The notes under the pieces were generated by a model, which worked only from the letters and a program-made list of their open reading frames with translations, was not told where the DNA came from and ran no database searches. Both the position numbers and the translations under genes were made by a program. Below, in pieces: positions 52,628-55,569 of a DNA stretch of 64,000 nt. Location: assembly GCF_000177195.2 (NCBI RefSeq), contig NC_015953.1:7254001-7318000 (forward strand). The letters run 5' to 3'. The stretch's first letter is position 1. Every line of letters starts with the position of its first letter. Origin of the DNA: Streptomyces sp. SirexAA-E (GTDB taxonomy: Bacteria; Actinomycetota; Actinomycetes; Streptomycetales; Streptomycetaceae).

Positions 52628-53497
52628 GTGCCCGACACCGACCCGACAGTGCCCGCCATCGAGCGGGCGGATCTGCGAGCCGACTGCGCGAACTGCTTCG
52701 GGCTGTGCTGTGTCGCGCTGACCCTGACCGCGTCGGCGGACTTCGCCGTCGACAAGGACGCGGGTACGCCGTGCCGCAACCTTCGGGACGACTTCCGCTG
52801 CGGCATCCACACCCGGCTCAGGACGGAAGGGTTCCCCGGGTGCACGGTGTACGACTGCTTCGGCGCGGGTCAGAAGATCTCCCAGCACACCTACCAGGGC
52901 GAGGACTGGCGGCGCCGGCCGGACACCGCCCGGCAGATGTTCCGGGCCTTCCCGGTGATGCGGCAGCTCCACGAACTGCTCTGGTACCTCACCGAAGCCC
53001 TCACCCTGCCCGCCGCCGTACCCCTCCGCCCCCAGCTGCGCGCCGCACTCGCGACCACCGAAGCCCTCACCTCGTCCCCGGCCGGGGAACTCGCGGAACT
53101 GGACGTGTCGGCACACCGCGAGCGGATCGCCGCGCTGCTGCTGCGTGCCAGTGAGCTCGTCCGTGCCGGCGGCCACCGTCGCAAGAAGCGCAACCACCGG
53201 GGGGCCGATCTCATCGGCGCCCGGCTGCGCGGCGCCGACCTGCGGGGCGCCGACCTGCGTGGTGCCTTCCTGATCGCGGCGGACCTGCGCGGCGCCGACC
53301 TGCGGCTGGCCGACGTCATCGGCGCCGACTTCCGGGACGCCGAACTGTCCGGCGCCGACCTCACCGACGCCCTCTTCCTCACCCAGGCCCAGCTGAACGC
53401 GGCGAAGGGCGACACCGGCACCAGGCTCCCCGGGGCGCTGACCCGGCCCTCGCACTGGGCGGGCGTCCGGGGAGACGGTGGCGCCGGAAAGGCCTGA
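52628..53497 (+). CDS. Cys-cluster domain fused to pentapeptide repeats
   Basis: A 289-residue protein. Residues 15-75 contain a Cys-rich module (CANCFGLCC, then PCRNL, RCGIH, GCTVYDCFG) like the CxxCxxxCC putative metal-binding domain. Residues 190-260 form a run of A(D/N)LXX pentapeptides (GADLIGARLRGADLRGADLRGA), which fold into a right-handed quadrilateral beta-helix. The middle is helical. Pentapeptide proteins can mimic DNA and protect gyrase, but this is not specific; the fusion suggests a metal-sensing or scaffold role (inference). The GTG at 52628 follows GGAGGAACCAGCAC. Confidence 0.85.
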   Translation: MPDTDPTVPAIERADLRADCANCFGLCCVALTLTASADFAVDKDAGTPCRNLRDDFRCGIHTRLRTEGFPGCTVYDCFGAGQKISQHTYQGEDWRRRPDTARQMFRAFPVMRQLHELLWYLTEALTLPAAVPLRPQLRAALATTEALTSSPAGELAELDVSAHRERIAALLLRASELVRAGGHRRKKRNHRGADLIGARLRGADLRGADLRGAFLIAADLRGADLRLADVIGADFRDAELSGADLTDALFLTQAQLNAAKGDTGTRLPGALTRPSHWAGVRGDGGAGKA

Positions 53498-53506
53498 CGC
53501 CCCGGG

Positions 53507-54037
53507 TCAGCCGTCCGTCGCAGGCCGGCCCCCGCTCTCCGCCTCCTCCAGCGCCGCCTTGAGCCGCTCCAGCGTCGTACGGATGTTGCCCCGCTGGAAC
53601 TCCGCGAACGTGCGGCCGCGCGTCGCGACCCGGTCGAACGCGTTGGCGAGGACGTCCGGCCACGTCCGGCGGTCGTCGGTCCACGTCTCGGTGACCCGGG
53701 TGCCGCCGTCGGCCTCCTCGAAGCGGTACTCCCACTGGGCGATGGCGCCCCGGAGCCGAGGCTGCCGGGCACCGATCGCGTGTACCCGGAAGGCGAACCG
53801 CACACCCGGGTCGGCGGCGGTCACCGTGCACCTCGTGGTCCAGCGGAAGGCGCCGCGCTTGTTGCGGCCCTCGAAGACCATGCCGACGTGCGTCTCCCGC
53901 TGACCGCCGAGCACCCGTGCCCCCTGGTTCTCCGGGCTCCAGCGCCCCATCGCGGTGGGATCGCTGACGTGTTCGTAGACGACCGACGGAGCTGCGTCGA
54001 TCAGAATGCTGTCCGAGACGGACATGGTGCGCGGCAT
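53507..54037 (-). CDS. SRPBCC family protein
   Basis: A 176-residue START-like protein: MSVSDSILIDAAPSVVYEHVSDPTAMGRWSPEN is the usual opening, followed by strands and a C-terminal helix (NAFDRVATRGRTFAEFQRGNIRTTLERLKAALEEAE). It binds a hydrophobic ligand; no catalytic motif is visible. The ATG at 54035-54037 follows GGGAGTGACCCCG. It is divergent from the radical SAM gene with a 155-bp gap, so they may share a promoter region and perhaps a pathway. Ends nine bases before the convergent pentapeptide gene stop. Confidence 0.85.
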   Translation of the reverse strand: MPRTMSVSDSILIDAAPSVVYEHVSDPTAMGRWSPENQGARVLGGQRETHVGMVFEGRNKRGAFRWTTRCTVTAADPGVRFAFRVHAIGARQPRLRGAIAQWEYRFEEADGGTRVTETWTDDRRTWPDVLANAFDRVATRGRTFAEFQRGNIRTTLERLKAALEEAESGGRPATDG

Positions 54038-54192
54038 CGGGGTCACTCCCTGTCCACGCCCGGACCGGCCCCGACGGGAATCGGGCGGGCAGGCCGGACG
54101 GATCACGTGCGAACGGTTGACGGTGCTGGTTCGTTGGACAGTGTGGCGTACACGCAGGAGTGTCCAGCACACCGGACCAGAGGAGCCCGCAC

Positions 54193-55569
54193 ATGGCACG
54201 TCCCACCGAGACCGGCCCCGCCCGCACCGCCCGTGCGGGCACGGGCGACCGCACGCGCCTGGTCGAAGGACTCATGGAGCGGTATCCGCACGTGCCACGT
54301 GAAGCGGTGATCAAGGAAGACCTGCTGCGCGGGGGTATGGCCTTCGACGAGTCCGCGCTGAGCGACAACGAGCACGGGGACGTCAAGCCGAAGTCGTACT
54401 TCATCTTCTCCTTCGACCACGGCACCCTGCCGGAGCTGGGCGCTGCCGCGCTGCGCCGGCCCCCCGAGGAGATCGTCCTCACCGGTGGCTCCTACGACCT
54501 GCGCCGCACGGTGGTGTCGGTGCGGGTCAACCCCGCCTCGCCGTACCGGGTGGCGGCCGGGGAGGACGGGGTCCTCGGCCTGTACCTCGACGGGGTGCGG
54601 ATCTGCGACGTCGGCCTGCCTCCGATGCCGGACTACTACCGCCACACCCTGGACAACGGCAAGTCCGTGATGGAGGTGGCGCCCACCATCCAGTGGGGCT
54701 ACCTGGTCTATCTCACGGTCTTCCGGGTCTGCCAGTACTTCGGCGCCAAGGAGGAGTGCCAGTACTGCGACATCAACCACAACTGGCGCCAGCACAAGGC
54801 GGCGGGCCGCCCCTACACGGGCGTGAAGGACGTCGAGGAGGTCCTGGAGGCCCTCGCGATCATCGACCGCCACGACACGGCGAGGACGACCACGGCCTAC
54901 ACCCTCACCGGCGGGGCGATCACCTCGCACATCCAGGGCCGTGACGAGGCGGACTTCTACGGTCAGTACGCCAAGGCGATCGAGGAGCGCTTCCCCGGCC
55001 GGTGGATCGGCAAGGTCGTCGCCCAGGCGCTGCCCAAGGCCGACGTCCAGCGTTTCCACGACTACGGCGTGCAGATCTATCACCCCAACTACGAGGTGTG
55101 GGACCGCAGGCTGTTCGAGCTGTACTGCCCGGGCAAGGAGCGCTACGTCGGCCGCGACGAGTGGCACCGCCGCATCCTCGACTCCGCGGACGTCTTCGGC
55201 GCCCGCAACGTCATCCCCAACTTCGTCGCCGGTGTGGAGATGGCCCAGCCCGCCGGCTTCACCACCGTCGACGAGGCCATCGCCTCCACGACAGAAGGCC
55301 TGAGGTTCTTCATGTCGAACGGCATCACACCGCGCTTCACCACCTGGTGTCCCGAACCCACCACGCCGCTCGGCAGGACCAACCCCGACGGGGCACCGCT
55401 CGAATACCACATCAGGCTGCTCGACGCCTACCGCTCCACCATGGAGGAGTACGGGCTGTCCTCGCCCCCCGGTTACGGTCCTGCCGGCCCCGGGCGCGCG
55501 GTGTTCTCCGTCAGCTCCTTCATGGACAGCCTCGCCCCCGGGACGCCTGCGGCTTCCGGGCGCCCTTGA
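54193..55569 (+). CDS. radical SAM protein with non-canonical CX8CX2C cluster motif
   Basis: A 458-residue protein. The only plausible SAM-binding 4Fe-4S ligands are Cys180, Cys189 and Cys192 in CQYFGAKEECQYC, a CX8CX2C spacing instead of the canonical CX3CX2C. The remaining landmarks of a radical SAM barrel follow in order: LTGGAIT (about 238-244), IYHPNYEVWD (295-304), VIPNFVAGVE (340-349) and the final CPEPTTPLG strand. The N-terminal 150 residues are not a recognised domain. The ATG at 54193 follows GAGGAG; an earlier GTG is less likely. Divergent from an SRPBCC gene. Substrate unknown. Confidence 0.8.
   Translation: MARPTETGPARTARAGTGDRTRLVEGLMERYPHVPREAVIKEDLLRGGMAFDESALSDNEHGDVKPKSYFIFSFDHGTLPELGAAALRRPPEEIVLTGGSYDLRRTVVSVRVNPASPYRVAAGEDGVLGLYLDGVRICDVGLPPMPDYYRHTLDNGKSVMEVAPTIQWGYLVYLTVFRVCQYFGAKEECQYCDINHNWRQHKAAGRPYTGVKDVEEVLEALAIIDRHDTARTTTAYTLTGGAITSHIQGRDEADFYGQYAKAIEERFPGRWIGKVVAQALPKADVQRFHDYGVQIYHPNYEVWDRRLFELYCPGKERYVGRDEWHRRILDSADVFGARNVIPNFVAGVEMAQPAGFTTVDEAIASTTEGLRFFMSNGITPRFTTWCPEPTTPLGRTNPDGAPLEYHIRLLDAYRSTMEEYGLSSPPGYGPAGPGRAVFSVSSFMDSLAPGTPAASGRP

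Follow-up and report, generated by a model that had tools for sequence, protein, structure and literature searches.

A radical SAM protein of the NF045502 family with CX8CX2C cysteine spacing in Streptomyces: conservation, operons of related clades and predicted chemistry

Among described radical SAM enzymes, lipoyl synthase, biotin synthase and HydE hold their cluster in a CX3CX2C motif, and LipA and BioB additionally bear auxiliary clusters, with lipoyl synthase displaying an N-terminal auxiliary-cluster motif of the form CX4CX5C. By comparison with a structural model, these enzymes possess a barrel fold like that of the Streptomyces protein described here, with which they share 9-18% identity in structural alignments. 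A second described system, the MSMEG_0568/NitD radical SAM protein of the Nit1C type, is related in sequence to our protein across both the N-terminal part and the barrel and likewise has a non-canonical first loop between its cluster cysteines. In one study, the Nit1C-type gene is the third of seven in a nitrilase cluster and the related radical SAM genes are grouped beside COG2516, a set of biotin-synthase-related proteins (PMC1199592); another names it NitD, within a gene cluster for cyanide assimilation (PMC10138600). Much undiscovered chemistry lies in the large pool of radical SAM enzymes whose functions are open. A literature search on CX8CX2C radical SAM proteins, on NF045502/TIGR04043 and on the operons described below returned, among the papers listed, nothing evidently devoted to the family or to those operons, with subscription papers lying mostly outside its scope; the two papers matching the spacing itself concerned DNA polymerase D and an NMR study of Fe-S biogenesis, and nothing came up for MSMEG_0568 or for a stand-alone Streptomyces enzyme. 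The new element presented here is the operon contexts of three related clades, one associated with a TPP riboswitch and two, labelled 'met' and 'cys', with sulfur metabolism genes.

The gene, its family and its cysteines

The window analysed is a 64-kb stretch of DNA (64,000 nucleotides, positions 7254001-7318000) from the single-contig genome of Streptomyces sp. SirexAA-E (7414440 bases). The radical SAM gene (54193..55569, +) is a single open frame of 458 amino acids beginning with ATG, and a probable ribosome-binding site, GAGGAG (54180..54185, +), is predicted from the sequence 7 bases 5' of the start codon. The gene lies about 105 kb from the chromosome end and is the sole match in a search of its own genome. 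The protein has six cysteines (138, 180, 189, 192, 312 and 386), and its only CX2C falls within Cys180-X8-Cys189-X2-Cys192; we looked for CX3CX2C in the 458 residues and found none, which bears out a preliminary description of this DNA that had reported the unusual spacing. The CX8CX2C pattern appears in 12 of 20000 shuffles of the protein's letters.

The protein scores 163.7 bits against the NCBIfam model NF045502, 'variant_rSAM' (cut-off 125), with residues 40-395 aligned to positions 7-335 of the 357-position profile. This model is an uncharacterised, domain-level one covering several clades with differing operons, and members elsewhere in the family score higher, for instance 363 bits for L109 of the 'met' clade and 389 bits for the place in G710. 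The Pfam Radical_SAM model (PF04055) reaches 16.1 bits, below its gathering score of 29.5; a model built on canonical spacing may fit lengthened cysteine loops poorly. Against TIGR04043, which describes MSMEG_0568/NitD, the score is 22.9 bits for a cut-off of 303.7. The NitD clade is further distinguished by a C-terminal CX2CX2C, whereas our protein has no cysteine after 386, and its first loop ranges from 5 to 9 residues, whereas that of our clade is fixed at 8. Pfam searches of 6 of the 15 genes called at 45-64 kb of the window, the immediate neighbours included, recovered no nitrilase, GNAT or AIR synthase. Models of LipS2 and LipA give weak matches in 6 of 8 related proteins, and none in the target, its relative from family f3 of the same order or the sister clade. 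Searching solved structures with the family profile yielded four weak matches, the best being biotin synthase 8vcw at 3.4e-06; the corresponding phmmer search gave a single chance-level match (E 0.58), and the PHROGs (phage) and PADLOC (defence) models gave none. The protein scores above the cut-off of NF045502 and shares with that family the CX8CX2C spacing. The suggestion that it represents an under-studied radical SAM subgroup is supported, and its motif and N-terminal region are conserved. Annotators already cover the group as NF045502; it is a member of a known, little-studied family, apparently uncharacterised and ordinary in kind.

The three-cysteine cluster motif conserved across radical SAM enzymes is present here with CX8CX2C spacing. 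The codons of Cys180 (54730..54732, +), Cys189 (54757..54759, +) and Cys192 (54766..54768, +) specify the presumed first, second and third [4Fe-4S] ligands, which are invariant both in all 35 sequences of the close alignment (83-96% identity, the target among them) and in 21 of 21 sequences of a diverse family alignment. The residues invariant in the latter are G48, G156, C180, C189, C192, E219, G241, G292, E301, D304, P313, K315, F335, V340, G347 and G377, with P313 and K315 belonging to a CPGK motif. Of the barrel landmarks named in the preliminary description, G241 (in TGG) and E301/D304 (in EVWD) are thus invariant in the diverse alignment, and NFVAG and CPEPTTPLG are features of the clade. 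Values of dN/dS against five relatives (0.085-0.203) indicate purifying selection.

Outside the triad, only Cys312 and Cys386 are conserved. Cys312 of CPGK (55126..55128, +) occurs in 35 of 35 close sequences, in 12 of the 21 diverse ones and in 117 of 123 members of the Streptomycetales clade (the remaining six being unmatched by the search pattern), and is also found in the sister and 'met' clades. Cys386 of TTWCPEPT (55348..55350, +) is clade-specific: it was found in 122 of 123 clade members, with one sequence again unmatched by the search pattern, and is replaced by R or S in all 13 sequences of other clades in the 21-sequence alignment. Its restriction to the Streptomycetales clade suggests a changed active site. 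The sole N-terminal cysteine, Cys138, is kept in 2 of 35 close sequences, and the N-terminal CX4CX5C of lipoyl synthase is absent from the protein.

A loop of 8 residues is found in 123 of 123 distinct members of the Streptomycetales clade (141 before rows with identical C-termini were merged), and also in 7 of 7 'met'-labelled rows, 7 of 7 'cys'-labelled rows and four sister-clade proteins; for L187 and L182 the 'met' and 'cys' labels denote the nearest reference only. The 26 rows nearest the Nit1C type vary, with 8 residues in 12, 6 in 6, 5 in 3, 9 in 2 and 3 in 3. The three CX3CX2C rows, labelled 'nit' (L202, L204 and L222), score below the NF045502 cut-off and probably lie outside the family. 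These counts exclude frames shorter than 150 aa (the remnant in G022 and L026-L028) as well as L153 (CX8CX2C by eye, 76 bits), L203 and L205, which were too weak for classing; one row of the f43 group was counted as 12 because its upstream read-through contains an earlier, spurious match to the pattern, its true spacing being 8. Relatives passing the cut-off therefore have a first loop of 5, 6, 8 or 9 residues. A further study gives CX5CX2C for HmdB, to which an exception previously cited as 'HmdA-type' corresponds, and CX14CX2C for QueE, whose cluster site it describes as canonical except for the extension of one loop (PMC4389238). The first loop being elastic within the family, spacing alone provides no argument for new chemistry, and the earlier proposal that it signals an unusual reaction is not supported; more generally, the length of a cysteine loop alone should not be taken as a sign of odd chemistry.

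The N-terminal region (residues 20-165; 54250..54687, +) is conserved, and a Pfam search of the approximately 150 N-terminal residues matched no family. Its identity in the close alignment is 86-92%, against 87-98% for segments of residues 166-420, and 44-57% relative to family f3. Thus, both the spacing and the N-terminal region proved conserved in the clade once a family alignment was built. Parts of the region align across all related clades, with what looks, from the sequences, like a clade-specific insert at about residues 61-105. Hence, the 'unknown N-terminal domain' of the preliminary description is indeed without a Pfam family, but is a feature of the family and not a private domain.

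Operons of related clades

Overall identity between the target and other clades is 20-28%. A maximum-likelihood tree of 40 sequences places a clade of two f43 genomes beside the Streptomycetales clade (support 97/93), and a second tree of 31 sequences, in which two new f22 members joined 29 sequences of the first and the long branches L187 and L182 were omitted, recovers the same sister join (99/97); a long-branch warning attaches to this join in both trees. Residues 301-360 are 58% identical between the target and the sister clade, against 20-33% with other clades outside the order, which lends the placement some independent support. The sister proteins share the CX8CX2C spacing of the target, but have Arg in place of Cys386 and at most 28% overall identity to it.

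In all four sister genomes (the yield of a search through 197 genomes of that class, counting the two from which it started) the operon has the order TPP riboswitch, YkoF, YkoE, double EcfA, EcfT, radical SAM gene and an unknown last region of approximately 110-200 aa. This last region has a frame of its own in the f43 pair, and in the f22 pair it shares a single open frame with the radical SAM part. The operons lie at L145:7445-13381 and L146:7306-13102 (both -) and, with radical SAM and unknown region in one frame, at L230:6745-12385 (-) and L231:4555-10366 (+). In Bacillus, YkoFEDC is an ECF system for thiamin precursors. Whereas the sister clade is linked to transport genes, the window of the target gene has no TPP riboswitch, and a search of the 64-kb window with Rfam at gathering thresholds gave no match. 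The three TPP riboswitch matches of its own genome, at 1.72, 3.75 and 5.35 Mb, of which only the first is above the gathering score, are at least 1.9 Mb away from the radical SAM gene (about 7.31 Mb). YkoE (PF09819) occurs in 0 of 41 relatives of the target genome, in a search whose controls recovered it in B. subtilis and C. glutamicum.

Two further clades are embedded in sulfur metabolism. In the 'met' clade, 5 of 6 loci have O-acetylhomoserine sulfhydrylase, CBS and cystathionine gamma-synthase/lyase genes next to the one for the radical SAM protein (the methionine/transsulfuration genes being present in L150, L151, L152, L207 and L211, and not in L206), and MetX and MetW are additionally present in 4 of 6. 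In the 'cys' clade (L147, L148, L149, L208, L209 and L210), the downstream region of all 6 loci codes for a DASS anion symporter, Usp, cysteine synthase and a JAB-like stretch, the JAB match in L148 lying on the coding strand of a region read otherwise in the open-reading-frame list. ATP sulfurylase is encoded directly upstream in 4 of 4 loci with upstream sequence (L147, L149, L208 and L209, the copy in L209 being cut off), and further upstream TusA, APS reductase, Rrf2, a MoeB-like protein and sulfite reductase are encoded in 3 of 3 loci where the sequence allows. ThiS was confirmed in L147, which we take to resemble a carrier-protein cysteine pathway. In five loci of related clades, Rfam at gathering thresholds found only a tRNA; it found nothing in L029, L157, L158 and L094 and, in L139, an M-box riboswitch at a distance of several kb from the radical SAM gene. 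None of the neighbours of the sister, 'met' and 'cys' clades is conserved with the Streptomyces gene. As for conserved neighbours across genomes, which the preliminary description proposed to look for, the Streptomyces loci supply none, but these three related clades have informative operons.

Two observations concern more distant relatives. A tblastn search of a plasmid collection with a 'met' protein gave distant matches on 471 plasmids, 369 of them from Klebsiella, and 37 of 40 among the matches listed are annotated as MSMEG_0568 family, which suggests a mobile Nit1C-like cluster on those plasmids. On an Agrobacterium plasmid (L187:4459-7861), NUDIX and GalE genes accompany a radical SAM pair, of which one member has a weak B12-binding domain and the other is a distant CX8CX2C relative.

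Predicted fold and proposed chemistry

The AlphaFold2 model, built on the 35 close sequences, is of low confidence (mean pLDDT 58.6, pTM 0.67). The ten-residue blocks of 211-310 and 321-380 have pLDDT of at least 69; regions below 50 include residues 44-116, 178-209, which comprise the motif loop and make it unreliable, and 384-393, the segment of Cys386. The model contains the partial or full (beta/alpha) barrel broadly expected of radical SAM enzymes, at residues of about 166-420 (54688..55452, +). Its best VIA match is the M. tuberculosis lipoyl synthase 5exj (Z 15.3, 247 aligned residues, rmsd 3.3, 11% identity); after the lipoyl synthases follow HydE, HydG, NifB, biotin synthase, PylB, MqnE, ThiH and NosL and, lower down, PFL activase, GDGT-MAS, Elp3, RimO, RlmN and MoaA. 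In Foldseek, the top match is MiaB, which acts on tRNA (E 2.2e-07), ahead of LIAS and others. On this modelling, the fold class is likely a lipoyl/biotin-synthase-like barrel, and the first rank of MiaB in Foldseek, along with PFL activase, RlmN and RimO in VIA, leaves the kind of substrate unfixed.

We propose that the protein would function as a stand-alone radical SAM enzyme of NF045502 (COG2516-like) with such a barrel. C180, C189 and C192 would hold a [4Fe-4S] cluster through the lengthened first loop, SAM would be bound at the fourth iron and split to a 5'-deoxyadenosyl radical, and this radical would abstract a hydrogen from the substrate, a small metabolite being likelier than a protein or RNA. 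The substrate would then probably be rearranged, cleaved or oxidised, sulfur insertion from a sacrificial cluster being less probable, since no auxiliary-cluster motif is conserved. Cys386 could serve to donate a hydrogen or to contact the substrate. Judging by the operons of the related clades, the substrate may connect to thiamin (its pyrimidine moiety or breakdown products) or to sulfur amino acids.

The components of this proposal differ in strength. Radical SAM chemistry is predicted with high confidence. A small-molecule substrate is the choice we lean towards, at a level lowered in view of the two top-ranking structures: the substrate of lipoyl synthase is a chain bound to protein, and that of MiaB is tRNA. 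That the Streptomyces clade is itself connected to thiamin or sulfur is a guess by analogy, doubtful enough that we keep it as a lead, because YkoE is absent from the relatives, the TPP riboswitches are distant, no sulfur-related neighbour is conserved and Cys386 is clade-specific. We assign a probability of roughly 0.42 to the joint reading, namely that a small molecule undergoes radical SAM chemistry, the thiamin or sulfur link serving as a lead. As the sister clade's riboswitch names a vitamin, substrate discovery can be directed instead of being a blind screen. An unlikely extension would have the Streptomyces clade and its sister constitute a new radical SAM type that remodels thiamin-like pyrimidines or thiazoles, with Cys386 quenching the radical; if true, this could amount to salvage of damaged thiamin or to disarming the thiamin antimetabolites of competitors in the soil.

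Distribution, neighbours in Streptomyces and alternative readings

The sampling of relatives covered Actinomycetota together with collections of plasmids and viruses, and control genomes showed the family also in one cyanobacterium and two archaea. Of 41 related genomes, including that of the target, 26 have a match: 15 of the 25 same-genus genomes have a full-length gene and another has a remnant, and 10 of the 14 genomes of family f3 have a match of 56-59% identity. The remnant (G022:C37:22918-23265) lacks most of the middle of the gene, the cluster motif included. Among 394 genomes drawn evenly from the class (E 1e-8), 27 match, comprising 25 of 40 same-genus genomes (at least 83% identity) and two further matches at 28-29% identity that belong to other clades. 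In G451, a partial second copy lies behind an intact one. A scan over the contigs of 84,980 species yielded at least 594 pattern matches, of which at least 587 encode relatives; the best 80 of these are 79 Streptomyces loci and one from Kitasatospora. A plasmid search (E 1e-5) detected the gene on two linear Streptomyces plasmids, and two scans of viral contigs, queried with relatives of the target protein, found no relative. Within the order, the gene is thus accessory yet strongly conserved. As it is well conserved and a single genomic match, its deletion should be straightforward in many Streptomyces.

For the neighbourhood we called genes in 101 stretches, 89 with the clade's gene and 12 loci of other clades, using a script based on Streptomyces codon usage; being closely related, the 89 loci do not count as independent observations. 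The commonest companion, in 47 of the 89, is a CBM_2-domain protein encoded downstream on the same strand (as the next gene in 46, two genes further in one), and 46 loci have an arabinonolactone-oxidase-like gene at a distance of at most six genes. The flanks in family f3 of the same order are quite different. We considered and rejected these two genes as functional partners: they change elsewhere, and their presence is read as synteny. The lack of a conserved partner implies that the enzyme works by itself or together with genes located elsewhere. When the upstream regions of about a third of the loci were read by eye, a short GCATACCGTGAGGAGT stretch was found to be recurrent in part of the genus.

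These patterns bear on an alternative that we consider a serious possibility, though short of even odds, in which the enzyme serves accessory or specialised Streptomyces metabolism on a substrate outside thiamin and sulfur, the substrate having changed on entry into the order. The patchy presence within the genus in both samplings, the location towards the chromosome end and on linear plasmids, the variable neighbours and the clade-specific Cys386 and C-terminus are all consistent with it. However, comparison of gene neighbours revealed no conserved neighbouring cluster, and the identity of 83-96% in the close alignment would be unexpected of a cluster tailoring enzyme.

An improbable alternative is a sulfur-inserting enzyme resembling lipoyl or biotin synthase. 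LipA and BioB do provide the best VIA matches and the weak profile matches of related clades, and relatives reside in sulfur operons; against this, the conserved cysteines beyond the triad amount to Cys312 and Cys386, which leaves no auxiliary-cluster motif, and the Streptomyces clade itself is devoid of sulfur-operon neighbours. Still less probable is a loss of catalysis with the cysteines serving another metal: the sub-threshold Pfam Radical_SAM score would agree with such a loss, but the triad, G241, E301/D304 and P313/K315 are invariant in 21 of 21 sequences and the gene is under purifying selection.

The preliminary description had also taken a divergently oriented SRPBCC gene (53507..54046, -) as a hint of a lipophilic partner. 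This Polyketide_cyc2 gene is real (PF10604, 73.8 bits), and divergent neighbours of this type occur in the window and on one plasmid, but an SRPBCC cluster is near the radical SAM gene in only 13 of the 89 loci, so that joint action on a lipophilic substrate is hardly credible; we rejected it as a partner and place it outside any system with the radical SAM gene. Beside the SRPBCC gene, positions 52631-53497 (+) encode a pentapeptide-repeat protein with a cysteine-rich N-terminal part (CANCFGLCC and further cysteines).
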